A stretch of 42,724 nt of DNA from Halorubrum coriense DSM 10284 (GTDB lineage Archaea; Halobacteriota; Halobacteria; Halobacteriales; Haloferacaceae): NCBI RefSeq assembly GCF_000337035.1, contig NZ_AOJL01000009.1, positions 1 to 42,724 on the forward strand, in the 5' to 3' direction. How positions within the stretch are numbered: position 1 is the first letter of the stretch; every line of letters starts with the position of its first letter. The notes under the pieces were generated by a model. That model worked only from the letters and a program-made list of their open reading frames with translations. It ran no database searches and was not told where the DNA came from. Shown here one piece after another: positions 10,226-42,641 of the stretch. The translations under genes and the position numbers were made by a program.

Positions 10226-11269
10226 ATGGCCAAGTGGAACTACTTCCTCCGTCGGTTACTCCTCTCGATACCCGTGCTCATCTTGGGGACGACGGTGGCA
10301 TTCCTGATCATCCGCGCCGGCCCGATCGATCCCGCGGCAGCAATCCTGGGTCCGTCCGGTGATCCAACCGAGTACGAGCAGCTAAGAGAGTCGTTGGGGC
10401 TAAACGACCCGCTGTGGGACCAGTATCTCGATTACATGTGGAACCTGTTTACTTTTAATCTTGGCCAGTCATGGGTGATAAGCCCTGGCGACGGCGCGTA
10501 CGAACTCATCGCGTCGTACGCGCCGCGTACCCTGTGGCTCGGGTTTTGGTCGATACTGATCCCGCTGTTTATCGGCATTCCGCTCGGGTTCTACGCGGGG
10601 TTGAACCCCAACACGCTGAGCGACTACTTCGCCTCGTTTGGGGGGATCGTCTGGCGCGCCATGCCGAACTTCTGGCTCGCGATCATCCTCGTCTCCGTCC
10701 TCTCTCAGTCCGAGAAATTGTTCGGCTTCGAGTGGGCCACCTTTCTCGTCGAGACCAACATCGTAACCCCCCCGCCCTTGGGGTTCCTCGGTGACCCGCT
10801 CAGCCTGATCACGGCGCCCGGAGAGACGTGGCCCGTCGTGCTTGGGGCGACGAAACAGATCCTTCCGGCCGCGCTGGTGTTGGGATCGGCGTCGATGGGG
10901 AATGAGATGCGGATCGGCCGGACCGCTGTGCTGGAAACGGTGAACTCGAAATATGTCGAAACCGCCCGAGCGAAGGGGATGAGCCGGCGTAACATCGTTT
11001 GGAAGCACATCTTCCGGAACGCCATGATCCCGCTCGTTCCGGTTATTACCGGCGAGGCGTTTCTGCTGATCGGCGGCTCCGTGCTGGTCGAGGTTGTGTT
11101 CGGGATCAACGGAATCGGATACCTCTTCTTCCAGTCGGCAATCCAAGGAGACCTGCCGCTGGTCTCGTCGCTACTGTTCGTGTTCATCCTGACGCTGGTC
11201 GTACTCAACATCATCCAGGACCTGCTGTACACGGTACTGGATCCCCGCGTTGGATTCGAGGATCAATAA
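10226..11269 (+). CDS. dppB: Dipeptide ABC transporter permease DppB
   Basis: A 347-residue inner-membrane permease. The family N-terminus is clear (FLRRLLLSIPVLILGTTVAF with IRAGPIDPAA), followed by the BPD_transp_1 domain and the EAA coupling loop (VETARAKGMSRRNIVWKHIFRNA), ending LYTVLDPRVGF. About six transmembrane helices. With DppC it forms the channel of the peptide importer. A segment of about 30 residues (EKLFGFEWATFLVETNIVTP and on) within the external loops is longer than in the shortest bacterial DppB. dppC starts 3 bases after the stop. Confidence 0.93.
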   Translation: MAKWNYFLRRLLLSIPVLILGTTVAFLIIRAGPIDPAAAILGPSGDPTEYEQLRESLGLNDPLWDQYLDYMWNLFTFNLGQSWVISPGDGAYELIASYAPRTLWLGFWSILIPLFIGIPLGFYAGLNPNTLSDYFASFGGIVWRAMPNFWLAIILVSVLSQSEKLFGFEWATFLVETNIVTPPPLGFLGDPLSLITAPGETWPVVLGATKQILPAALVLGSASMGNEMRIGRTAVLETVNSKYVETARAKGMSRRNIVWKHIFRNAMIPLVPVITGEAFLLIGGSVLVEVVFGINGIGYLFFQSAIQGDLPLVSSLLFVFILTLVVLNIIQDLLYTVLDPRVGFEDQ

Positions 11270-11272
11270 TCC

Positions 11273-12715
11273 ATGTCCGCTGACCAAACGGCAACAACGA
11301 CGACGTACCGTGACCGTATGCGCGATTACCCTGCTCCGTTCGCTCGATGGCTGGCGGGGGTCTCACTCCTCCTCTTGGTCGAACTCGGGGCAGTGCTCTC
11401 TTTCGTGTTGGGTGTGGCGAACGACCTCCTCCGGCTTACCCTCGGGACTGCCCCGCTCTCAGGCGCGGTCAGTACATCTCAATCGCTCCCGACGCTGATC
11501 TCACGCGATCTCGTGCCGAACCGGGGGTATTACACCGGCGAAGAGTGGGCGGGCACATTCCTCGGGCTTGAGCCGAAGTATGCCTGGCTCATTCGGGTCG
11601 CCCTGGTCGTCGTCTATGGGGCGGTCTGGTGTGGTTGGTTGTGGTTCGGGTATATCACGTTCCGCCGCCACTACCGAGTCGCGGACTGGACCCCGACCGA
11701 TGATATCATCGACCGGCTCAGGAGCCACCAGTGGGGGAAGTTCGGGATGGTTATCGTCGCTCTGTTCCTCCTGTTGGCGCTGTTCGCGCCCGTCGTGAGT
11801 CCGACGACGATGGAACAGAACATTCAGGACCCGTACTCCAACCAGATCCAGTACTTCTCCGAAGAGACCGGTGAGGTTCAAACGACGACGGCCGGAGCGG
11901 CGAACCGACAGTCGACCTCAGTCGGATCGGTCGCGCGCAACGTCGGCCCGTGGGAGTACGACAACTTCAACAGATTCCACCCGTTCGGCACCCTGCCTTC
12001 GGGGAAGGACCTGTTCACGTTCCTCGCGTACGGAGCACGCATCTCGCTGTTCATCGGCGTCAGCTCGATGCTCGGGGCCGGCGCCCTCGCGATGTCGTTC
12101 GCGATGATCTCCTCGTTCTACAAAGGCGCCGTTGATTTGGCGCTGGTCGTCACCAGCGACTCGATCCAGGCGTTGCCGGTGTTGATGATACTTATTCTAG
12201 CCGCGGTGGTGTTCTCAAACACCTGGATAGCGACGGTGTACAACGGTGCCTTGCTGTTCATAGCGCTGTTCACCCTCATATACTGGCCGTACCTGTGGCG
12301 AGCGATCCGCGGTCCATCGTTCCAAGTCGCAGAGGAGGAGTGGATAGACGCCGCTAAAAACTACGGGCAACACCCCGCTCAGATCATGCGAAAGCACATG
12401 GCGCCCTACATCGTTGGCTACATGCTGATCTACGCCTCGCTCACGCTCGGCGGGGTGATCATCTCCGTTGCCGGGCTCTCGTTCCTCGGGCTCGGGATCA
12501 CGCCACCGACACCGGAGTGGGGGCGAGCAATTAGCGTCGGCCAGCCGTACGTCGCCTCTGCCTCGTGGCACATCTCGCTGATCCCGGGGTTCTTGATCAC
12601 GCTGGTCGTCACCGCGTTCAACGCGATGGGGGACGGGATCCGCGACGCTGTCGATCCGCAGAGCGCCGAAGGCGACGAAGCGACAGCTGCCGCCGCCGGT
12701 GGGGGTGGCGCATGA
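11273..12715 (+). CDS. dppC: Dipeptide ABC transporter permease DppC
   Basis: A 480-residue permease, clearly longer than the roughly 300 residues of typical bacterial DppC. The extra part is an N-terminal extension with two hydrophobic helices (about 20-50 and 100-130) before the usual first helix (KFGMVIVALFLLLALFAPVVSP). The BPD_transp_1 domain contains the EAA loop (WIDAAKNYGQHPAQIMRKHMAPY) and the conserved end (GDGIRDAVDP). Such long DppC forms are known to me from haloarchaea. The last codon region overlaps dppD by 4 bases (ATGA). Confidence 0.92.
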   Translation: MSADQTATTTTYRDRMRDYPAPFARWLAGVSLLLLVELGAVLSFVLGVANDLLRLTLGTAPLSGAVSTSQSLPTLISRDLVPNRGYYTGEEWAGTFLGLEPKYAWLIRVALVVVYGAVWCGWLWFGYITFRRHYRVADWTPTDDIIDRLRSHQWGKFGMVIVALFLLLALFAPVVSPTTMEQNIQDPYSNQIQYFSEETGEVQTTTAGAANRQSTSVGSVARNVGPWEYDNFNRFHPFGTLPSGKDLFTFLAYGARISLFIGVSSMLGAGALAMSFAMISSFYKGAVDLALVVTSDSIQALPVLMILILAAVVFSNTWIATVYNGALLFIALFTLIYWPYLWRAIRGPSFQVAEEEWIDAAKNYGQHPAQIMRKHMAPYIVGYMLIYASLTLGGVIISVAGLSFLGLGITPPTPEWGRAISVGQPYVASASWHISLIPGFLITLVVTAFNAMGDGIRDAVDPQSAEGDEATAAAAGGGGA

Positions 12716-31835: not shown

Positions 31836-32723
31836 TCAACTCTGGTTAAATCCGTAAGCGGCCTGTTCACGACGTTGTGACACTGCCGTTGGGGTATCAA
31901 ACACGCGGCTATCGCTGTCGTCCATCCATGAGAGTACTGTTAGTGTCGTTTGTAGCTCGTCGTCCACAGTATGTTGATCGCTTAGAGTTTCGATGATAGC
32001 AGGCGGCCACGGTGGCTCGTTGCTGCTCTCAAGCTCGGCACCTGTAGTAACGCCAGCGTCGGCGAGCGTCGTCGCCACAGGCTCTGGAATTGTTTGTAAC
32101 TCACGCAGCGTTGTCGATGTCAACTTTTGATCAGGGTCAACACTCACCTCGATGGGCGAGGAGAACAGATTGTTGTCGGCGTCTTCAATCTGCGTGGTAG
32201 CGTCCGCAAACGAGTCTCGAGCCTGCCGAAACCGTATTCGGGCGAGTGTATGATCGCCTTGTGTATGGGCCCCGATAGCCACCTGAAAGCTCTGTTCTGC
32301 CGATTTGAGCGTCTCGGTGAGGTTTTTGCGTTGGGTGTGGAGGGTCCGAACCGCTTCTAACTCACTTTCTGTCGAGTCGATAGTATCCTCAATCTCGGTG
32401 TGTGTTTTGCTCGCTTCGGGATTGAGTTTGTTGAGCGCAGCCTGATACCGGGTGAGAGCTGCGGTGTAGGCCTCGATAGCTTCCTCGAATTTACGCTCTT
32501 CTCTGGCACTAGCAGCCGTATCAAGAAATGTGTCGGCTGTAGATCGAAGTTCACCGACCGATGAGGCATCGAGCGTCCGCTCTGGATTGTGTGATGTCTG
32601 CTTCGTGCTGGGTTCTTTTTGGCTCGCTTCGGCGGCTCCGATCAGCCTGAGCAGTGCGAGAGAAAAGATAACCATGGCAATCACGACCCCACCGGTCCAC
32701 ATCATATACGAACTCTGGAACAT
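31836..32723 (-). CDS. Membrane-anchored coiled-coil/HhH protein, paralog A
   Basis: 295 residues. One N-terminal membrane helix (about 10-30), a Ser/Thr/Asn linker, then a TPR-like and coiled-coil part (REERKFEEAIEAYTAALTRYQ; SAEQSFQVAIGAHTQGDHTLA followed by RIRFRQARDSFADA), then SPIEVSVDP and a helix-hairpin-helix-like end (IPEPVATTLADAGVTTGAELE). About 190 residues are homologous by eye to the divergent gene at 32872, which has a different N-terminus. It is probably tail-inside at the membrane. Function unknown; the HhH-like part might bind DNA or protein. Confidence 0.65.
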   Translation of the reverse strand: MFQSSYMMWTGGVVIAMVIFSLALLRLIGAAEASQKEPSTKQTSHNPERTLDASSVGELRSTADTFLDTAASAREERKFEEAIEAYTAALTRYQAALNKLNPEASKTHTEIEDTIDSTESELEAVRTLHTQRKNLTETLKSAEQSFQVAIGAHTQGDHTLARIRFRQARDSFADATTQIEDADNNLFSSPIEVSVDPDQKLTSTTLRELQTIPEPVATTLADAGVTTGAELESSNEPPWPPAIIETLSDQHTVDDELQTTLTVLSWMDDSDSRVFDTPTAVSQRREQAAYGFNQS

Positions 32724-32871
32724 GGCTTGTGGTCAACGGGGACGACGCATCAAGCTATTGGACAATTAACATTATTGCCCCAGAGCGGTCTCTTTCGGTG
32801 TATCCAGTTGATGATCTCTCTTAGGGGTACCCATTAAAACCAAGTTCACTAATTACAAAAATGTCATCTGT

Positions 32872-34017
32872 ATGATTGAGTACTGCGAGAACGAAAAACA
32901 GCTTCCCGACTCTCTCCGAGGGTACATCATCGATGCGATCGGTGAGGATGAGACGTTTCGTGCCGCCGTTAAAACAACAACTGGCGGATTCACAGAAACG
33001 GTTTGGTTAGTATTGACTTCCGAGAAGGTGATAATTGTCGTCTCTAAGCTGATTGACGCGACCTTGGAGTCTGTACCGTTGTCAACTGTTACAGAAGTTG
33101 ACTCTCGTCTTGTTGATTTACCAGATGAGCGCCGGCGAGAGCTTTCCATCGCGACGATTGACGAGACGTTTACATACGAGCTTCATGACCCAAACCGAGA
33201 GTTCATCGACAAGGTCCAGACGGCCGTTGCCGCCGTTCCCGACCCAGAACTCACAGACCCGACTCATCCAACGGACGTTGATCACGTTATTCAAAACTGC
33301 GAACGGGTTGTTGATGCCGCCGAAAGCGCTCACAGTGAAGGACTACTTACTGAGGCTTCTGACCAGTATGAGACGGCCATCAGTGGATACCAGACGGTTC
33401 TTGAACGACTCCCAGCTGACGATGGCCGGCGAGACGCCATCCAGCATACGCTGAGGGACCTCCAAACTACTCACCAACAGGTTGTGGATCTTCAAGCGCG
33501 TCGCGAAACGCTTCGCTCACGGCTTACCACTGCGGAGAATAGCTTTCAAACTGCTGTGAGGGCACATCTTGAGCAACGACAGACGGTCGCCAAGATCCGG
33601 TATCGCGAGGCTCGCAACGGGTTTGAGAACGCGCTTGATCTGCTAACGACCGATTCTCCGGTGCTTGTGACGCCGATTGAATTTGCTGTGGAGGCTCACT
33701 CTCTTTCAGTTTCTGGATCGCTTGCTGAATATACCCCACTGTCAACAACCACCATAGAGGCACTCAGTGCCGATGAGATCACAACTGTCGCAGATCTCCA
33801 AGCACGAACAACGGGGCCTACAAGCACTGACGACGCCGACACCGGGCCGGCGCTTACGATAGACGACCTTGTTGAGACACCAGCTATTAGCCAAACAGAT
33901 GTCCCACCCCTTCTGGCGCTTGCGTGTCAGCACACAGACAGCGTTTCCTTCAAGTCCCGAGATGACATCCAGCGACGCTTCGAGCAAGCGCTCTCGGGAT
34001 ATCACGCGACCGTCTAA
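32872..34017 (+). CDS. PH-like plus coiled-coil/HhH protein, paralog B
   Basis: 381 residues, soluble. The first 125 residues look like a bacterial PH-type (YokE-like) domain: strands TVWLVLTSEKVIIVVSKLIDA, ESVPLSTVTEVDSRL and a last helix with DKVQTAVAAV. A TPR/coiled-coil region follows (EASDQYETAISGYQTVLERL; AENSFQTAVRAHLEQ; AKIRYREARNGFENAL), then VTPIEFAVEAH and an HhH-like segment (LSTTTIEALSADEITTVADLQ). It shares the central and C-terminal parts with the gene at 31836 on the other strand, 148 bases away. Codon use is less GC-biased than in the first half of the window. Function unknown. Confidence 0.65.
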   Translation: MIEYCENEKQLPDSLRGYIIDAIGEDETFRAAVKTTTGGFTETVWLVLTSEKVIIVVSKLIDATLESVPLSTVTEVDSRLVDLPDERRRELSIATIDETFTYELHDPNREFIDKVQTAVAAVPDPELTDPTHPTDVDHVIQNCERVVDAAESAHSEGLLTEASDQYETAISGYQTVLERLPADDGRRDAIQHTLRDLQTTHQQVVDLQARRETLRSRLTTAENSFQTAVRAHLEQRQTVAKIRYREARNGFENALDLLTTDSPVLVTPIEFAVEAHSLSVSGSLAEYTPLSTTTIEALSADEITTVADLQARTTGPTSTDDADTGPALTIDDLVETPAISQTDVPPLLALACQHTDSVSFKSRDDIQRRFEQALSGYHATV

Positions 34018-34052: not shown

Positions 34053-34703
34053 TCACTCGAACGTGTAGTCAGTGTCGTACGCGCTAACGTACTCGTCGTT
34101 GCCTGTTCGATCTGGCACGTAACACGGGCTTCGTATCCCACCCATGAACACGGGAGCCTCGATATCGAGATCCGTTCGTCGGTCGAGCAGTGCCGGAACC
34201 ATCTCCCGAAGTTCTCTCACTCGTGGTTCTCGCCGGGTGCGGAGTGTGCCTTGTGGCGGTCGGTGTTCGGTTAGCGGGGGCAGTGAATTCTTCCTGAGAT
34301 CCTCGCTGGTGACGATCCGCACGTCAAGTCGCTGAGCGAGATACCATGCGGGTGTGGTCACGCCCCACGCTACAACGAGTACGGGCATTGCCCGACCGAG
34401 TGCGGCCCGGTGTGAGATCGACGCAACGGCGTTCCGACCGACCAAGGTCGTGTTCCAGTCTTTACACTCAGCGACGATGAAGTCGTCCGGCTCATCACGG
34501 AGGGGTTTGTGCCGCGCGATGACGTCGGTTTCGAGCCCGAAAATGTGCTCATTGCGGGCGGTGAGATACCCCCATCTTTCGAGTGTCTCAGCGAACTTCG
34601 CTTCGAGCCACCGGCCGTTTGTTGGGTCGTGATCAACGGTGGGCTTCTCGTCGGTGTCACCAACCTCCGGAATCTGCTTGGGTTCTTCAGGAGGGTCACT
34701 CAT
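34053..34703 (-). CDS. PD-(D/E)XK nuclease-like protein
   Basis: 216 residues. A restriction-endonuclease-like core is visible: RWLEAKFAETLERWGYLTARN with a helix-Glu, GLETDVIARHK (the Asp), and FIVAECKDWNT (Glu-x-Lys), then SHRAALGRAMPVLVVAWG. This is the Mrr/RecB-like arrangement that cuts or processes DNA. The C-terminal region (from about residue 140) is a separate segment with RREPRVRELREM and a YVPDRTGNDEY end. It is the last gene of the accessory operon and overlaps the 80-aa gene by 8 bases. Could be a restriction or replication-related nuclease of an integrated element. Confidence 0.7.
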   Translation of the reverse strand: MSDPPEEPKQIPEVGDTDEKPTVDHDPTNGRWLEAKFAETLERWGYLTARNEHIFGLETDVIARHKPLRDEPDDFIVAECKDWNTTLVGRNAVASISHRAALGRAMPVLVVAWGVTTPAWYLAQRLDVRIVTSEDLRKNSLPPLTEHRPPQGTLRTRREPRVRELREMVPALLDRRTDLDIEAPVFMGGIRSPCYVPDRTGNDEYVSAYDTDYTFE

Positions 34704-34938
34704 CTGTGGAGCCCTCCTGATTAGTCACGTCGGTGGCTGCCTCTTCGAGTGCGGTTGCGACTGCTCGTGCCTCTTCGGGCGTGAGTTCCGCGTAGGTGGT
34801 CCCCCACGGACCACCAAACCCGAGCGTGATGGTGGTGTCATCGAGTTCGCTCTGGCTTACCTGAATTGCCCCCTCGGTGTGGGTGACAGGGCGGTCGCGT
34901 GTCACGGCTGTCTTGAGGTCGATCGTGGGCGATGTCAT
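34696..34938 (-). CDS. Small acidic protein of the accessory operon (80 aa)
   Basis: 80 residues, overlapping the upstream 927-aa gene by 4 bases (ATGA) and the downstream nuclease-like gene by 8. A compact beta-rich core (TITLGFGGPWGTTYAELTPEEARAVATALEEA, in two parts) is flanked by acidic ends. No known domain. The tight overlap on both sides indicates translation as part of one polycistronic message and a real gene. Confidence 0.6.
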   Translation of the reverse strand: MTSPTIDLKTAVTRDRPVTHTEGAIQVSQSELDDTTITLGFGGPWGTTYAELTPEEARAVATALEEAATDVTNQEGSTDE

Positions 34939-37718
34939 TGCGTCTCACCCCTTTGTTTCGAGTGGAGCGTTGATGTTGTCGGCTCTGGTGGTCGGCTCTG
35001 TGTGGTTGGTATTTGAGAGGCGAGCAGTGAACTGTGCTGGTCGAATTGTCGATACGACTTCACTGGAAGCGTGGTGTGTCGGGTCATCTGAGTCGTGGTG
35101 AACAGCGCTGTGTACGCATGGACAGTACGGCGTCGTGTCCAGACGTCGGAGTGACTGCGTACAACGCGGTGAGGTAGGTTCGGCTGGCGATGCGCCAACA
35201 GCGGTGGTGCGTTCGTGGCTGCCGGTGGAGTGAACGAGGCTTTGGGAGTGGCCACCCACCGTCGGTGGCCATTCACCTGGACAGGCTGGATCTGGTCGAG
35301 CTCGCGCACATCGTGAATTCGACGATCATAGCTGCTAGCAGAGACCCCAGCTTGCTCGAGTAACTCGGTGCGACCAAGCGGCTCCTCGGCTCTGAGCAGC
35401 GTGGCGTACAACTTCGTCGCCGTCGGCGTGAGATCAGGCCGAAAGCGCCTAGCTGAGAGTGTGGCCGCTGTGCGTTCCACGTCGGCAGGCGTTGGTGAAT
35501 GCGTCTCGTTCAGCGCGCGGAGGAGGCTCTCCACGACGTCGTACGGACACGCTCTGTGGGTGTCCGCCGGGCTGAACGAGCGCAGACAGCGCCGCACGAG
35601 CCGCTGTTTCTCGCGGGGTGTCCACTGTACATCGTGGGTCATCGCAATTTTCTCTATTGCCCGCCGAATGGCGGGGTAGGTCGTCCCGTTGACGACGGGG
35701 ATTTCGAGCGGTGGTGCGTGTTCGGTGCCGTCGGCGATCGCTTCCCGGACGTCGGTGAGTTCCGCTTCGAGGGCTGTGGTGATCTGATCGGCAAGTTCTG
35801 TGACAGTCGGCCCAGCAAGCACCCACGACATGGTGAGATCCATCTGTGTGTCAGGCTCAACCTCGTAGGGGAGTCGCCGGGCCAGTTTTGCGGGCCGCTC
35901 TTCGAACAACATGCGGTAGCCCGCGTGAATTCCGTAGACAGATTGTTTAGGGACCGTCTTGGCAAGGAACGTACTGAGGTCCTGTAGTTGGGTGGTGTTG
36001 CGTGCGAGCGCATCGGTATCTGGAAGCCTGATGGTGGTCGTGAGATCAATACTCGCTGCGTGATACAGCTGGGTGGCTGAAGCAATCAGGCCGTGGAGAT
36101 CTTCAAAGAGGTCACTTCGGGCAGCGGTGTCATCGCTGTGCGTGAGTTTGGCGACTTGTGTGAGGAGGCGGTCTCGGACAGTCGTGATTCGCTCACGCCA
36201 TGCTCCGTAGGTTGTTTCTGTGTCGCTGTACCAGCCGACTTGGTGGCCACGGCGGAGGAGACGGGCGGTGTCGTGGTCGGTATTTTCGTGGAGTCTGTTG
36301 AAGTTCTGGCCGAGCCGCGAGGGAGTGAGAATTTTGGAGAGAGCCTTTTCGCTCAGTAAGGCACCCGCGAGACGTCCCAGGGTGGCTAAGGGGCCACCCC
36401 ACTGGAGCACAACGAGGGTTTCATTGTTGGTGTGGCTCAGGTACGCGACACGGCCGTCCTCGAAGGGTTCTGGTTGGTCATCAACGAGCGTGACGGCATT
36501 GTCATGAGCGACGGTGGAGAATCGCTCGTGGAGGTGGGTTGGAGCGTTTTTTGCGTCGGTGAGCCACTGGACGTACTCACTATTCTTGTCTGGATTGCCG
36601 GTTGTCGCCACCCATTCCTCTGGGGAGGGTGTCTTTTCGCCTCCTCGGCGAGGCGACACTGTACTTGTGGATTCCTGAGGGGTCGCAGTAAGACTCTTTC
36701 CGAGTTGGCGCTGATCCGGGTGGACGAGGTCGTAGTTATCGTCGAGACACTGTTTGACGGCTAAATTTCCGAGGTCAGTGAGATGGACGGAGTTCTGCTG
36801 GCCACGGCGGTCGATCGTGACTACGTCGCGGGCTTCGAGATTGAGGACATACCTGCTAATGGTACCGTCTGCGACATCGATCGCGTGGTCGTTGCCAAGA
36901 TCGCGGTAGCTCCGGGCGTACGCTATATTGAGATTCCCGAGAACGCGGCGTTTTCCAGGCTCGGTGTCGAGATCACGGATGGCCTTCCATGCGGTCTCGA
37001 CAGTTTGTGCGTGGTCGGTGTGGGGGGACCGCTCCCGGCTGGCAGTAAGACTGAGGTGACACTCACCCCAGTCGGGATACCGCTTCAATAGATGTCTGTG
37101 GACTCTGGGGGAGGCGACGAGTCTAACGTCGAACCCATCGGCAAGGACGGCGGTCGCTGCGAGTGCGCGGACGCCCGTGCGGCGGTCTGTAAGAGAGGTC
37201 CACGCGTCGCCGTCCAATAGGAGTGTGAGGGCACGTGGTTGATCGTCGAGTTCACGATGGAGTGCGACCGGGCCCTTCGCGAGTGCGCCGAGGTCGGCGT
37301 TGACTGGCCCGCGCCCCGTGCCGATGCTGGTGACTGTATCGGTGAGGTCTGCGTGTCGCCGTTGGTGGTACGGACTGCGTGTCTTGGTGGGTCCGTCTCC
37401 GTAGGTGAGCGCGAGTGTCGTGATCGCGCGGGTGTACGCGACGGCTTCGGCGACGTCGTCGGTCCATGGGTTGTCCGTGCGTTGCCACGCTGGCAGGGTT
37501 TCTGCGAGGATCTGGGAACTCGTGTGCCACGGATCGGTGGTGGGGTACTCGCGGATGGTTCGCTCCGTTTGTGGCCGGAGTTTGTCGAGGAGCTCTGGGA
37601 CCCACTCGGTCAGCCGGGGGGAGACCGCTGGACAGGTGATCCCCTCGGTGGAGACGTTCGTGCTGTGGCTGACGAGGCGGACCCCTCGCTTGCGGACCAC
37701 GGGCTGGCGTGTTCCCAC
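34935..37718 (-). CDS. Large accessory protein with two winged-helix domains (927 aa)
   Basis: GTG start at 37718 (or GTG 37700), 927 residues. An N-terminal part (about 30-220) with ALTLLLDGDAWTSLTDRRTG looks alpha/beta. A clear winged helix lies at about 255-325 (RRVLGNLNIAYARSYRDLG, VADGTISRYVLNLEARDVVTI). The middle is mostly helical (RITTVRDRLLTQVAKLTHS). A second winged helix is near 780-845 (TPTATKLYATLLRAEEPLG, AGVSASSYDRRIHDVREL, VQVNGHRRWVATP). The final 80 residues are low-complexity Thr/Pro/Arg/His. I recall proteins like this in haloarchaeal plasmids and integrated elements, unnamed. A DNA-binding, perhaps replication-control role is inferred from the winged helices only. Confidence 0.6.
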   Translation of the reverse strand: MGTRQPVVRKRGVRLVSHSTNVSTEGITCPAVSPRLTEWVPELLDKLRPQTERTIREYPTTDPWHTSSQILAETLPAWQRTDNPWTDDVAEAVAYTRAITTLALTYGDGPTKTRSPYHQRRHADLTDTVTSIGTGRGPVNADLGALAKGPVALHRELDDQPRALTLLLDGDAWTSLTDRRTGVRALAATAVLADGFDVRLVASPRVHRHLLKRYPDWGECHLSLTASRERSPHTDHAQTVETAWKAIRDLDTEPGKRRVLGNLNIAYARSYRDLGNDHAIDVADGTISRYVLNLEARDVVTIDRRGQQNSVHLTDLGNLAVKQCLDDNYDLVHPDQRQLGKSLTATPQESTSTVSPRRGGEKTPSPEEWVATTGNPDKNSEYVQWLTDAKNAPTHLHERFSTVAHDNAVTLVDDQPEPFEDGRVAYLSHTNNETLVVLQWGGPLATLGRLAGALLSEKALSKILTPSRLGQNFNRLHENTDHDTARLLRRGHQVGWYSDTETTYGAWRERITTVRDRLLTQVAKLTHSDDTAARSDLFEDLHGLIASATQLYHAASIDLTTTIRLPDTDALARNTTQLQDLSTFLAKTVPKQSVYGIHAGYRMLFEERPAKLARRLPYEVEPDTQMDLTMSWVLAGPTVTELADQITTALEAELTDVREAIADGTEHAPPLEIPVVNGTTYPAIRRAIEKIAMTHDVQWTPREKQRLVRRCLRSFSPADTHRACPYDVVESLLRALNETHSPTPADVERTAATLSARRFRPDLTPTATKLYATLLRAEEPLGRTELLEQAGVSASSYDRRIHDVRELDQIQPVQVNGHRRWVATPKASFTPPAATNAPPLLAHRQPNLPHRVVRSHSDVWTRRRTVHAYTALFTTTQMTRHTTLPVKSYRQFDQHSSLLASQIPTTQSRPPEPTTSTLHSKQRGETQ

Positions 37719-37765
37719 AAGCGATCACCTGCTGGTGTTGGGCTGGTGGGTCAGATCGGCCAGCA

Positions 37766-38242
37766 TCACTCCGACCCCTCGCGCGGGGAGCCTCCATCAG
37801 AGCGGGCGTGTTCCCGAACTGTCGTGAGAAGCGGGCTTGGCTCCTGCCGTGCCGGCTGGGTTGGGGTTCGTGGTGTTGGGGCGTCCAGGTGGATACGTGG
37901 TTCTGTGGTCGTCGTGGGACTCGTGGCAATCGGGGTCGGGTCGAGGAGGACGTACGTTGTGGATTGCGTTCGGGTGTTTGAACACGTCCCGATGTGGCCT
38001 GTAAGGACGTACTCACGAACACCGCGGGTGAAGACGGTCGGGTGTTCGTGAATATCTGATCCGCACATGACATACCCGATCGCGTACGCGGGTTCGCCGG
38101 CTGCGCGGTAGGCGTAGGCGGTGATGTCGCCGCCTTCATGGAAGGGTTGGCCGCAGACTTGGCAGATTGGATTCTGGGTGTTGAGGGAGATGCGGGTGAG
38201 TTGGGCGAGGTCTGCGGCTTGTGGGCCGTCGGGGCGCGTCAT
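37766..38242 (-). CDS. Zinc-ribbon protein of the accessory operon
   Basis: 158 residues starting MTRPDGPQAADLAQL at ATG 38242, which overlaps the regulator gene stop (ATGA). A zinc-binding knuckle CQVCGQPFHEGGDITAYAYR and a second pair (MCGSDIHEH and GTCSN) suggest one bound zinc. Conserved-looking FTRGVREYVLTGHIGTC follows, then a Thr/Pro-rich disordered tail. It resembles small haloarchaeal plasmid-type proteins of unknown function. The frame is open further upstream to 38281 but that part overlaps the regulator and is not needed. Confidence 0.6.
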   Translation of the reverse strand: MTRPDGPQAADLAQLTRISLNTQNPICQVCGQPFHEGGDITAYAYRAAGEPAYAIGYVMCGSDIHEHPTVFTRGVREYVLTGHIGTCSNTRTQSTTYVLLDPTPIATSPTTTTEPRIHLDAPTPRTPTQPARQEPSPLLTTVREHARSDGGSPREGSE

Positions 38243-38556
38243 TCGTGCTCTCCCGCAGTGTTGCGAGTGCCAGCTTGCCACGCCTGCCGCGCGGAAAGCG
38301 CGTGGCGGGCCGACTCGGTCAGTCGGTACTCGGTCGTGTCGTGGGTTTGTTTGGTGACGAGGTCCAGTTCGATTAGGTCCTTGAGGGTGTCACACACTCG
38401 AGTTTGGTCGATACCGCCGGTGTAGTAGTCGGTGAGTGTGTGGTGGAGTGGACCGCTCTCTCTGGGACCAGTCTGCGATAGTACCCAGAGCAGGTCGCGA
38501 TGAGTGGCTGAGAGATCGGCAAGCGAGATGCCGTTGTTCTCGTTGGGGCTAGACAT
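38239..38556 (-). CDS. Winged-helix DNA-binding protein
   Basis: 105 residues from ATG 38556 (MSSPNENNGISLADLSATHRD). A wHTH is plain: LLWVLSQTGPRESGPLHHTL, GIDQTRVCDTLKDLIELDLVTKQTH, TEYRLTESARHAL. It is the usual haloarchaeal small regulator that follows PadR/MarR-like topology and probably controls the operon it leads. The start overlaps the preceding zinc-finger gene by 8 bases, and its stop overlaps the next gene. Longer frames exist upstream but lie inside the neighbour. Confidence 0.75.
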   Translation of the reverse strand: MSSPNENNGISLADLSATHRDLLWVLSQTGPRESGPLHHTLTDYYTGGIDQTRVCDTLKDLIELDLVTKQTHDTTEYRLTESARHALSARQAWQAGTRNTAGEHE

Positions 38557-38740
38557 TGTGCCCCTCCACGGTTTCCTGGTTGGCGCTACGTTTCGTAGCG
38601 CACGGTGTACAGAATGGGCCGTCGAAGACAGCGTCGTAGCCGTCGGTTGGGTTTGTACACAAACTATGGCAAGCACTGTTACCGTTCGATCCGTTAGTCG
38701 TCTCGCAGGGCTTAAGCCCCGCAGCTGCCAGCATTAACAT
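38549..38740 (-). CDS. Small zinc-finger protein, first gene of accessory operon
   Basis: 63 residues from ATG 38740 (or 79 from GTG 38788). Two cysteine pairs, CHSLC and CTPC, separated by TNPTDGYDAVFDGPF, form a likely C4 zinc ribbon. Four-Cys ribbons in small haloarchaeal proteins often go with wHTH regulators. Its end overlaps the regulator start by 8 bases, so it fits the chain of overlaps in the operon. The start is uncertain because no clear TATA box sits at the right distance. Confidence 0.5.
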   Translation of the reverse strand: MLMLAAAGLKPCETTNGSNGNSACHSLCTNPTDGYDAVFDGPFCTPCATKRSANQETVEGHNV

Positions 38741-38866
38741 GGTTCTGTGTTCAGGCACAGGACCCGTCTCGGCCGGGTGTTGGAGCACCGCGGCCGGGGT
38801 TTCTACACTTTCTCGTGCGCCGAGGGTTCGTCACCGGGCTCTGTAGTAGCTAGTAGTATCGCTTGT

Positions 38867-38958: not shown

Positions 38959-39274
38959 ATGCTCCGGCACTCTGGAAACTGGATGAAACTAGTTGACGAT
39001 CGGATTTTAGAATATCTCTATGAGAATGAAGCGGCGTCGCCCACAGAAATGATGAAGGGCGGACCAATCAAATTTAGCCGAGCATATATTGGTAGGCGAT
39101 GTAAAAAAACTGAAAGAGAAAGGATTACTCCGAGAGATTAGTGATGCAACATATGTCCTTACAGAAGACGGTAAGACATATCTCAAGGGCCACCTAGATA
39201 CTGAAGATTGGGAATATATTGATCAAGATGCCGCTGAGAACATCAATAGCGATTCTACTGGGAAGGGTATTTGA
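38959..39274 (+). pseudogene. Frameshifted winged-helix regulator
   Basis: The first part reads SGNWMKLVDDRILEYLYENEAASPTEMMKGGPIKFSR then AYIGRRCKK, matching a very common small haloarchaeal wHTH family. In frame +1 it continues KLKEKGLLREISDATYVLTEDGKTYLKGHLDTEDWEYID. The two halves join at a run of seven A (39103-39109): losing one A restores one frame of about 104 codons. Thus it is a frameshift mutation, a sequencing error at the homopolymer, or a gene read by slippage. Its DNA is clearly AT-richer than the core genes. Confidence 0.75.
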
Positions 39275-40356: not shown

Positions 40357-41265
40357 TTAGCCGAGGTACGCGTCAAGCCCCGTCGCGACGTCGTAGGTGG
40401 GTTCGAAGCCGAGCACGTCGCGCGCCTTTGAGACATCCGCCTCGCTGTGGTTGATGTCGCCCGACCGGGAGTCAACGTAGACAATCTCCGCGTTCGAGTC
40501 CGTCACGTCGCGGATCGTCTCGGCTAGCTCGCGGATCGAGATGCTGTTTCCGGTACCGATATTGAACGCCTCGCCGGCAGCCTCCTCGGTGGCCGCGGCG
40601 AGCAGGTTCGCTTCGACGATGTCGTTGACGTGGACGAAGTCGCGGGTCTGGGTCCCGTCGCCCTCAACGGTGAGGTCGTCGCCCGCGCGTGCCTGGTCGC
40701 GAAAGATGCCGATGACGCCGCTGTAGTTGCCGCCCTGCTGTCGGGGGCCGTAGGCGTTGAAATATCGGAGCGCGACCGCGTCGACGCCGTAGCGCTCGTG
40801 ATAGAGCCGGCAATAGTGGTCTGCGGTGAGCTTTTCGAGCCCGTACGGTGAGGTCGGTGTTTTCGGGTGGTGTTCGTCGATCGGCAGCGAGTGGGGATGG
40901 CCGTAGATTGCGGCACTAGACGCGAAAACGACGCGCGTGTCCGTCCCCCGAACAGCCTCGAGGATTGTGAGGAGTGGGTCAATATTCACCTCATGACTCG
41001 CTTGCGGGTCGTCGACGGAGCGTTGGACGCTGACCTGCGCCGCCTCGTGGAAGACGACATCGGCGTCGTTGACCGCATCTCGGAGCGTCTCGGCGTCACG
41101 GATATCGGCGTGGATGAACGCCGCGTCTTCGGGAACGTTGTCTCGGGAGCCCGTCGAGAGATCATCGTAGACCGTGACGGTACAGTCGTTGACGAGTCGG
41201 TCGGCGAGGTGGCTGCCGATGAATCCCGCTCCGCCGGTGACGAGGGCGTGATCAGAGTCGAACAT
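40357..41265 (-). CDS. NAD-dependent sugar-nucleotide epimerase/dehydratase (GalE-like)
   Basis: 302 residues, extended SDR. Cofactor motif VTGGAGFIGSHLADRL, SSAAIYG with the catalytic Ser region, YGLEK (Tyr-x3-Lys), RYFNAYGPRQ, and DFVHVNDIVEANLLA. The sequence is closest in style to archaeal UDP-glucose 4-epimerase/dTDP-glucose-dehydratase-like proteins that convert nucleotide sugars for glycan synthesis. The exact substrate is unknown. ATG 41265 is preferred over an upstream ATG at 41295 because the Rossmann strand begins right after it. It fits the glycan-related genes around. Confidence 0.87.
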   Translation of the reverse strand: MFDSDHALVTGGAGFIGSHLADRLVNDCTVTVYDDLSTGSRDNVPEDAAFIHADIRDAETLRDAVNDADVVFHEAAQVSVQRSVDDPQASHEVNIDPLLTILEAVRGTDTRVVFASSAAIYGHPHSLPIDEHHPKTPTSPYGLEKLTADHYCRLYHERYGVDAVALRYFNAYGPRQQGGNYSGVIGIFRDQARAGDDLTVEGDGTQTRDFVHVNDIVEANLLAAATEEAAGEAFNIGTGNSISIRELAETIRDVTDSNAEIVYVDSRSGDINHSEADVSKARDVLGFEPTYDVATGLDAYLG

Positions 41266-41507
41266 TACGTGGGTGTCTACGAGGTGGTCCGTCACGAGGC
41301 GTACTGGTCGTTACGACCGTATCGAATCACACATACAGAGCGGTGCGGGTGGTGTTCTCGTGCGGATAGATTCTAGACTCAATTGCCAATCAGAGGTATG
41401 CTTGGGCCTGTTCAGTGACCAATGGTCGGTGTCTCCAACCAGTAGCAATCTTAGACGAGAAGACGAACGTTAAAAGTGCGCCTAACCACTAACAACGTAG
41501 TTGATTA

Positions 41508-42641
41508 ATGCCTGACTCCAAACAACCGCGTGTTTTCCATTTAATAACGCGATTATTGAAAGGTGGTGCTGAAGGTCATCTGATCGCCACAGTCCAGGGT
41601 CTCGACAGATATGAGTTTACAGTAGGATATGGTTCGGAATACGTCCAGTCACAAGTTGACTCCCTAGAGAACGCGGGGGTTTCGACAAAGCGGTTCCCTC
41701 TCGTGCGACATTATAATCCTATAACGACGGTTCCAGCTGTTCTGTCGCTGGCCTGGTATCTTCAACGCAGAGATTTCGATATTGTCCACACGAACAGCAC
41801 GGAAGCTGGTATTATCGGGCGATTTGCTGCTAAGTTAGCTGGCGTTCCAAATATTGTTCATACTGTTCATGGAATACCGTTCTCGACGGACCGAAATAAT
41901 ATTTTAAGTCAGTTTGTACTCACCTGCGAGCGTCAGGTAGCGAGCTACACAGATCGTATTGTGACAAATGCAGATATCATTACTGAGGACTATCTTGAAC
42001 GTAACATTGGTACGTCAGAGCAGTACACGACCGTGTACAGTGGTGTTGAGTTAGATGCGTTTGTAGACGCAACGCCAGCAGACGATTTGCCGGGTAAACG
42101 TCCCCGTATCGTTATGATCGGACGGCTCACCGAGGGGAAAGGGCACGGAGTACTACTCAACGCTATTGAATCAATGGATGAGGACATTGGATCCGTGTGT
42201 ATCGTCGGTGACGGCCCACTGTACGACGAATTGGAAGCAGAGATTCTGAGGCGGGGATTGGACGGGCGTGTGTTCTTAATTGGTTTTCGAGATGATATTC
42301 CGAACGTGCTCGCTGCGAGTGACTTACTAACGTTACCATCGTTTCGTGAGGGGACACCCAGAGTGATCACAGAAGCGATGGCAAGTGGGGTGCCAGTAGT
42401 TGCCACCGACATTGCGGGAATTCCAGAGCAGGTCGCAGATGGAGAAAGCGGGTATCTGATCCCGACCGGAGATGCCAAGGCGTTGAGACGACGCTTAGAA
42501 CAATTATTACAGGATACAGAATTACGCCAACGAATGGGTCAACAAGGAATTGAGCGAGTAAAGCGGTTTTCTGTGGAGGCGATGGTTGAAGAAACAGATA
42601 ATATCTATCGGGATCTTCTTGGAAAGGATTGTCAGCTATAG
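41508..42641 (+). CDS. Family 4 glycosyltransferase
   Basis: 377 residues, GT-B fold. N-terminal half: VFHLITRLLKGGAEGHLIAT (sugar-acceptor side), IVHTNSTEAGIIGRFAAKLAGV; C-terminal half: IVMIGRLTEGKGHGVLLNAI, VCIVGDGPLYDELEAE, LTLPSFREGTPRVITEAMASG with the E-x7-E motif, VVATDIAGIPEQVADGESGYLI. It transfers a sugar from a nucleotide donor to a lipid- or glycan-linked acceptor in the cytoplasm. DNA is less GC-rich than the first half of the window, suggesting transfer as part of a surface-glycan region. TATA-like CGTTAAAA lies about 35-40 bases upstream. Confidence 0.9.
   Translation: MPDSKQPRVFHLITRLLKGGAEGHLIATVQGLDRYEFTVGYGSEYVQSQVDSLENAGVSTKRFPLVRHYNPITTVPAVLSLAWYLQRRDFDIVHTNSTEAGIIGRFAAKLAGVPNIVHTVHGIPFSTDRNNILSQFVLTCERQVASYTDRIVTNADIITEDYLERNIGTSEQYTTVYSGVELDAFVDATPADDLPGKRPRIVMIGRLTEGKGHGVLLNAIESMDEDIGSVCIVGDGPLYDELEAEILRRGLDGRVFLIGFRDDIPNVLAASDLLTLPSFREGTPRVITEAMASGVPVVATDIAGIPEQVADGESGYLIPTGDAKALRRRLEQLLQDTELRQRMGQQGIERVKRFSVEAMVEETDNIYRDLLGKDCQL

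Follow-up and report, generated by a model that had tools for sequence, protein, structure and literature searches.

The complete 42,724-base contig analysed here (the window, one of 69 contigs in the genome of a Halorubrum-type haloarchaeon) carries a compact block of six minus-strand genes, and the question raised by this locus is what the operon does and how its output is set. Coordinates were re-derived and agree with the initial annotation, which had described six minus-strand genes joined by short overlaps with a 47-base gap before the gene of a 927-aa protein. The first operon gene encodes a 63-aa zinc-finger-like protein of the CxxC type (ZnF, 38549-38740) and is followed by genes for a small wHTH protein (38239-38556; PHROG 4278, 2e-11 with a longer reading frame), a zinc-ribbon-like protein (ZR, 37766-38242 from an ATG, or to 38281 from a GTG, giving 171 aa), the 927-aa protein with two winged helices (34935-37718, GTG start), a conserved protein of 80 aa (p80, 34696-34938) and a nuclease-like protein of 216 aa (34053-34703). 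The overlaps amount to 8 bases (ZnF/wHTH), 4 bases (wHTH/ZR, with the ATG at 38242), 4 bases (927-aa gene/p80) and 8 bases (p80/nuclease), and the gap of 47 bases separates ZR from the 927-aa gene. Two features had been overlooked, namely a structured leader reaching from the ZnF ATG to position 38845 and a divergent repressor gene.

The 927-aa protein, to which the initial annotation could give no family name, is a RepH plasmid replication protein of haloarchaea as judged by full-length homology to annotated RepH proteins. It matches PHROG 17376 'replication protein' (3.6e-36), displays 64.6% identity over 88% coverage to RepH of pHrrPV6 and 46.6% identity to that of pNRC100, and also matches repH of phages phiH and ChaoS9. 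Furthermore, comparison of its AlphaFold model to BFVD retrieved the plasmid replication protein of ChaoS9 at E 2.3e-27, while the same model (pLDDT 67.6) matched nothing in the PDB beyond winged helices and, weakly, AAA+ proteins, with no catalytic hint. Assignment to the Rep-Arvir rolling-circle initiators (PF25227/DUF7845) was rejected, as no profile match was obtained at E up to 1 in Pfam dated 2025. In the case of pNRC100, repH is required for autonomous replication (PMC1447603).

The arrangement of the genes is conserved and not a matter of chance, since the order ZnF-wHTH-ZR-RepH, accompanied by a divergent phiH-type wHTH gene, recurs across more than 20 Halorubrum-type loci at 35-85% protein identity. 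ZR precedes RepH in all of these (>20 loci), and p80 and the nuclease gene follow RepH in about 18 of the compared loci, p80 (for which a weak DUF6907 match, E 0.0023, fell below the cut-off) keeping its position. The divergent phiH-type wHTH repressor gene (38959-39274, plus strand) is intact in relatives and is frameshifted in the window at an A7 run, which may reflect a real mutation or a sequencing error. Additionally, the operon is present on complete Halorubrum plasmids; one of them, pHrrPV6, has its genes annotated in this arrangement, with an HTH and PemK/MazF pair after the nuclease position. The gene occupying that nuclease position in the pHrrPV6 RepH operon (10783-11379 of the locus, L172) is annotated as rod-determining factor RdfA, although it matched no NCBIfam RdfA model at E up to 0.1.

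Alignment of 26 intergenic regions identified a common block that begins about 105 nt ahead of the ZnF ATG and runs to codon 13. In the window this block is represented by a conserved structured leader of ~145 nt (38703-38845, minus strand; 153.9 bits against our R1 model), which comprises the 5' UTR and the first 13 ZnF codons. Its strand GGGUUCUGUG is able to pair either with the 5'-end motif ACRGARCCC (helix P1) or with CACAGAACC beside the ATG (helix H3). The corresponding window elements, all on the minus strand, are the P1 5' arm ACAGAGCCC (38836-38844, near the predicted transcript start), the switch strand GGGTCCTGTG (38756-38765), which pairs with the P1 5' arm or the H3 3' arm, and the H3 3' arm CACAGAACC (38741-38749) immediately before the ATG. 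Between them lies hairpin H2 (38768-38798), with a variable 6-nt loop and a covarying stem showing antisense-type substitutions, while hairpin H4 (TGCGGGGCTTAAGCCCTGCG, 38704-38723) is located inside the ZnF ORF and displays an AT-rich loop. A TATA-like box is found about 31 nt upstream of P1, and its position suggests that transcription would start at the P1 5' arm. Covariation was evident among 54 distinct sequences, in which double changes affect 9 pairs and 46 cells (0/500 shuffles). The stem of H2 covaries, whereas H3 hardly varies and is mismatched in the window. Loop length varies from 6 to 7 nt. A YUNR loop motif is enriched about twofold over shuffles, equally on both strands, and is not decisive. 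Loop sharing among co-resident elements is not avoided, contrary to the expectation for loop-based compatibility. The leader matched none of 4227 Rfam models at E up to 10, and neither it nor the nuclease-linked toxin-antitoxin (TA) arrays dealt with below were found described in the open-access literature. The leader looks to be a new conserved element and, from its sequence, a predicted RNA switch.

The helices of the leader differ in the strand on which departures from Watson-Crick pairing are tolerated. The non-Watson-Crick pairs of P1, as read on the sense strand, comprise 75 G-U and 1 A-C (48 versus 1 by another count), whereas the departures in H2 comprise 6 G-U and 19 A-C, and those in H3 0 G-U and 6 A-C, an A-C on the sense strand being equivalent to a G-U on the opposite strand. 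When only unique stems of the main family are considered, the ratios are 10:1 and 1:11 (Fisher p = 1e-4, a value weakened by the relatedness of the sequences; fewer than 20 unique stems carry the signature). The opposite direction of the signature in neighbouring helices argues against mutation bias. These substitution patterns point to selection on the 5' helix P1 in the sense RNA, but on both looped hairpins in an antisense RNA. From this opposition between P1 and H2/H3 we infer the existence of an antisense RNA composed of H3' and H2'. The centre of H4 represents a conserved AT-rich box about 27 nt inside the ZnF ORF, which is a candidate promoter for this RNA and would place the antisense start near the ATG.

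A covariance-model search located the leader in 38 of 196 haloarchaeal genomes, representing six genera, where it heads two types of cargo: RepH operons, or operons composed of ZnF, wHTH and an SNJ2-type tyrosine integrase, the small wHTH protein having homologues in the latter as well. The suggestion that the window harbours an integrated plasmid or integrative element module for replication control is supported by the RepH identity, by the presence of the operon on complete Halorubrum plasmids and by a control region held in common with SNJ2-type integrase operons. Four leaders (loci L122, L125, L130 and L133) are not followed by RepH or by an intact integrase gene and are probably element remnants, and in two integrase-type elements of a single genome the H3-ATG part is tandemly duplicated (L126, 8025-8256; L127, 1071-1299). 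Among pleolipoviruses, the R1 model matched Humcor2 (E 3e-5), HRPV9 (E 0.0033) and SNJ2 (E 0.11, not significant alone). In the diverged leader subfamily, HRPV9 and Humcor2, P1 lies about 86-115 nt ahead of the ATG and H3 0-2 nt ahead of it, albeit with other sequences; this geometry is less clear in SNJ2, and in the diverged subfamily P1 alone performs no better than shuffled sequence. The pleolipovirus leaders and the T1 and T4 leaders of phiH fold beyond shuffles (z -2.9 to -7.4), which two coding controls do not. No leader was found by blastn in 50,697 phage records or by exact pattern in IMG/VR, the R1 model produced no significant match in the phiH L segment with filters off (best E 0.74 or worse), and the leader family was not found in distant RepH loci.

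Taken as a whole, we favour, with a probability of roughly 0.6, the reading that this is a RepH plasmid or provirus replication operon in which a divergent repressor, an alternatively pairing leader and an antisense RNA together set RepH-driven replication. The sense transcript would begin at the P1 5' arm, and its switch strand would either pair back to the 5' end (P1) or form the H3 hairpin abutting the ATG. A short antisense RNA with its 5' end at about the start codon would fold into the looped hairpins H3' and H2', bind the leader and shut the operon down, in the manner of phiH T(ant) acting on T1. In this way the divergent wHTH repressor and the structured leader would determine operon output and thereby replication by RepH; we infer which leader state would be ON and what effect this would have on copy number.

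Several known systems resemble this arrangement in part. Homologous RepH proteins are encoded by the replicons pNRC100/pHH1 and by phages phiH and ChaoS9; of these, phiH presents the same order as the window (repR divergent from gp56-gp57-repH, i.e. a divergent wHTH gene, small genes and repH), while pNRC100 carries repH only, without the ZnF-wHTH-ZR genes. No homology was detected between phiH gp57 and the small wHTH protein. The T1/T(ant) pair of phiH offers a matching layout in an early mobile-element operon with a structured leader of ~150 nt (z -4.0) and a divergent regulator, and T(ant) has its mapped start one base away from T1's first ATG. However, its leader sequence is a different one and it controls T1 rather than the repH transcript T4, and the antisense RNA of the window is a predicted one. 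The integrase operons of SNJ2, HRPV9 and Humcor2 combine a divergent repressor, a structured leader (with P1, and with H3 next to the ATG, in HRPV9 and Humcor2, less clearly so in SNJ2), accessory genes and a tyrosine integrase, the integrase standing where the window operon carries RepH and the nuclease. In bacteria, countertranscript copy control (ColE1, R1, pT181, pIP501) likewise places antisense hairpins, variable in their loops, across a replication gene's leader; in contrast, the system described here is archaeal, its leader also heads integrase operons and its loops lack a compatibility signal. In phiH, the T1 leader is cleaved once T(ant) has bound (PMC4284463). The T(ant) observation of 1993, said to await full exploration (PMC6210493), would be extended to a widespread class if the favoured reading holds.

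A wider proposal, to which we assign somewhat less than even odds, is that in haloarchaeal viruses, integrated elements and plasmids one family of two-state leaders with antisense RNAs switches both RepH replication and SNJ2-type integration, while the nuclease site in Halorubrum ratchets up addiction cassettes. A single RNA control may govern both replication and integration in many mobile elements of haloarchaea. The presence of a single recognisable RNA element before both kinds of operon provides a handle that can be searched for, deleted or mutated, and that bears on how plasmids and temperate viruses of haloarchaea set their copy number and choose between integrating and replicating; vectors for haloarchaea would also gain a regulatory RNA of natural origin.

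Two other readings of the leader were weighed against this control by sense and antisense RNA. Its hairpins might act as DNA, i.e. as inverted repeats or cruciforms forming the RepH origin or sites for the repressor or RepH, as would suit an element adjoining a replication gene and a divergent repressor and containing strong inverted repeats in H2 and H3; SNJ2 indeed provides a precedent of a DNA hairpin origin (PMC13107129). We regard this as unlikely, as the leader also precedes integrase operons devoid of any replication gene, DNA duplexes do not explain a G-U tolerance that varies by helix and strand, loop length ranges from 6 to 7 nt and the P1 arm can form its pairs solely in single-stranded RNA. 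Slightly less likely still is a classical riboswitch or protein-sensing leader, in which P1 is the switching helix, the conserved bases that separate P1 from H2 bind a ligand or an operon protein, and no antisense RNA is made. The mutually exclusive pairing of P1 and H3 and the highly conserved unpaired bases would fit such a leader, but the antisense-type substitutions in H2 would be unexpected, and the leader was found only before mobile-element operons with no common metabolic theme.

The initial annotation had also proposed a defence system, and an anti-phage operon combining a nuclease with DNA-binding proteins would draw on the last gene. The fold of the 216-aa protein matches AF1548 (1y88, E 1.2e-5) and EndoMS (5gke, 8.5e-4), and E34 is conserved in 90% or more of sequences while D60 and the E79-x-K81 motif are invariant; the core of the model reaches a pLDDT of about 70-85 and its last 70 residues are unreliable. 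The PD-(D/E)XK-like enzyme suspected earlier therefore has a restriction-endonuclease-like core that keeps its catalytic residues, and by modelled fold and residues the protein is a member of the PD-(D/E)XK superfamily and a putative nuclease. PADLOC, however, returned only weak winged-helix matches (CARF3 8.3e-5 for a wHTH, AbiEi 0.003), the nuclease matched no defence family, other RepH operons lack it or carry another gene in its place, and replication and TA genes make up the conserved neighbourhood. Given also the identity of RepH, a defence role is highly improbable, and the operon is better read as a replication module.

The region 3' of the nuclease gene in relatives is rich in TA genes. 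The 104 proteins encoded there include MNT-type nucleotidyltransferases (7), PIN (4), PemK (3), UPF0175 (3) and two each of HepT, TumE, MazE and RHH, and TnpB elements are likewise frequent; the 81 proteins on the opposite side include two PIN and two HepT and are dominated by glycosyltransferases. Toxins supported by Pfam occur in about 12 of 20 loci (single-protein scans). Truncated copies of the nuclease gene, most of them with a common 3' end, alternate with TA genes in about nine loci. Copies within a locus are barely more alike than copies between loci (identity 0.77 versus 0.72), and for several of them the nearest copy lies in another genome, which disfavours local duplication and suggests that nuclease-TA units were captured repeatedly by recombination inside the nuclease gene. 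These tandem arrays of mixed ancestry look to be a new feature and represent a natural record of repeated capture of addiction modules beside a replication gene; the gathered cassettes would bind the host to the replicon. Polymorphic-toxin cassette arrays (PMC3482391) likewise consist of tandem truncated anchor copies, with a recombination-acquired cassette of toxin type behind each copy, whereas here the anchor is a replicon-linked nuclease and the cassettes are intracellular TA pairs rather than secreted toxins. The window lacks a TA array after the nuclease and carries a pair of paralogues there instead. With its frameshifted repressor, mismatched H3 and missing TA cassettes, this copy may be decaying.

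The flanks of the module indicate where it resides. On the left (27-34 kb, from UppP to the 381-aa gene), the window is collinear with a contig of another species at about 68-79% DNA identity, where no RepH adjoins; on the right lie epimerase and glycosyltransferase genes, and glycosyltransferases predominate on that side in relatives. The RepH plasmid or provirus module is therefore probably chromosomal today and appears to lie on the edge of a variable surface-glycosylation island. Neither an integrase nor flanking direct repeats of the att type were found adjoining this RepH copy. The right-hand genes next to the module encode a UDP-sugar epimerase and a glycosyltransferase (40357-42641), and another RepH copy in the same genome (locus L039) has an epimerase nearby that is 61% identical to that of the window. 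The divergent paralogues of 295 and 381 aa (31836-34017) possess coiled or TPR-like middles, and the same pair also adjoins UppP genes in another species (locus L170). Lastly, an AbrB-like/MazF-like toxin-antitoxin pair, assigned by reading, is located in the core of the contig (17202-17834, plus strand) and is unrelated to the RepH module.
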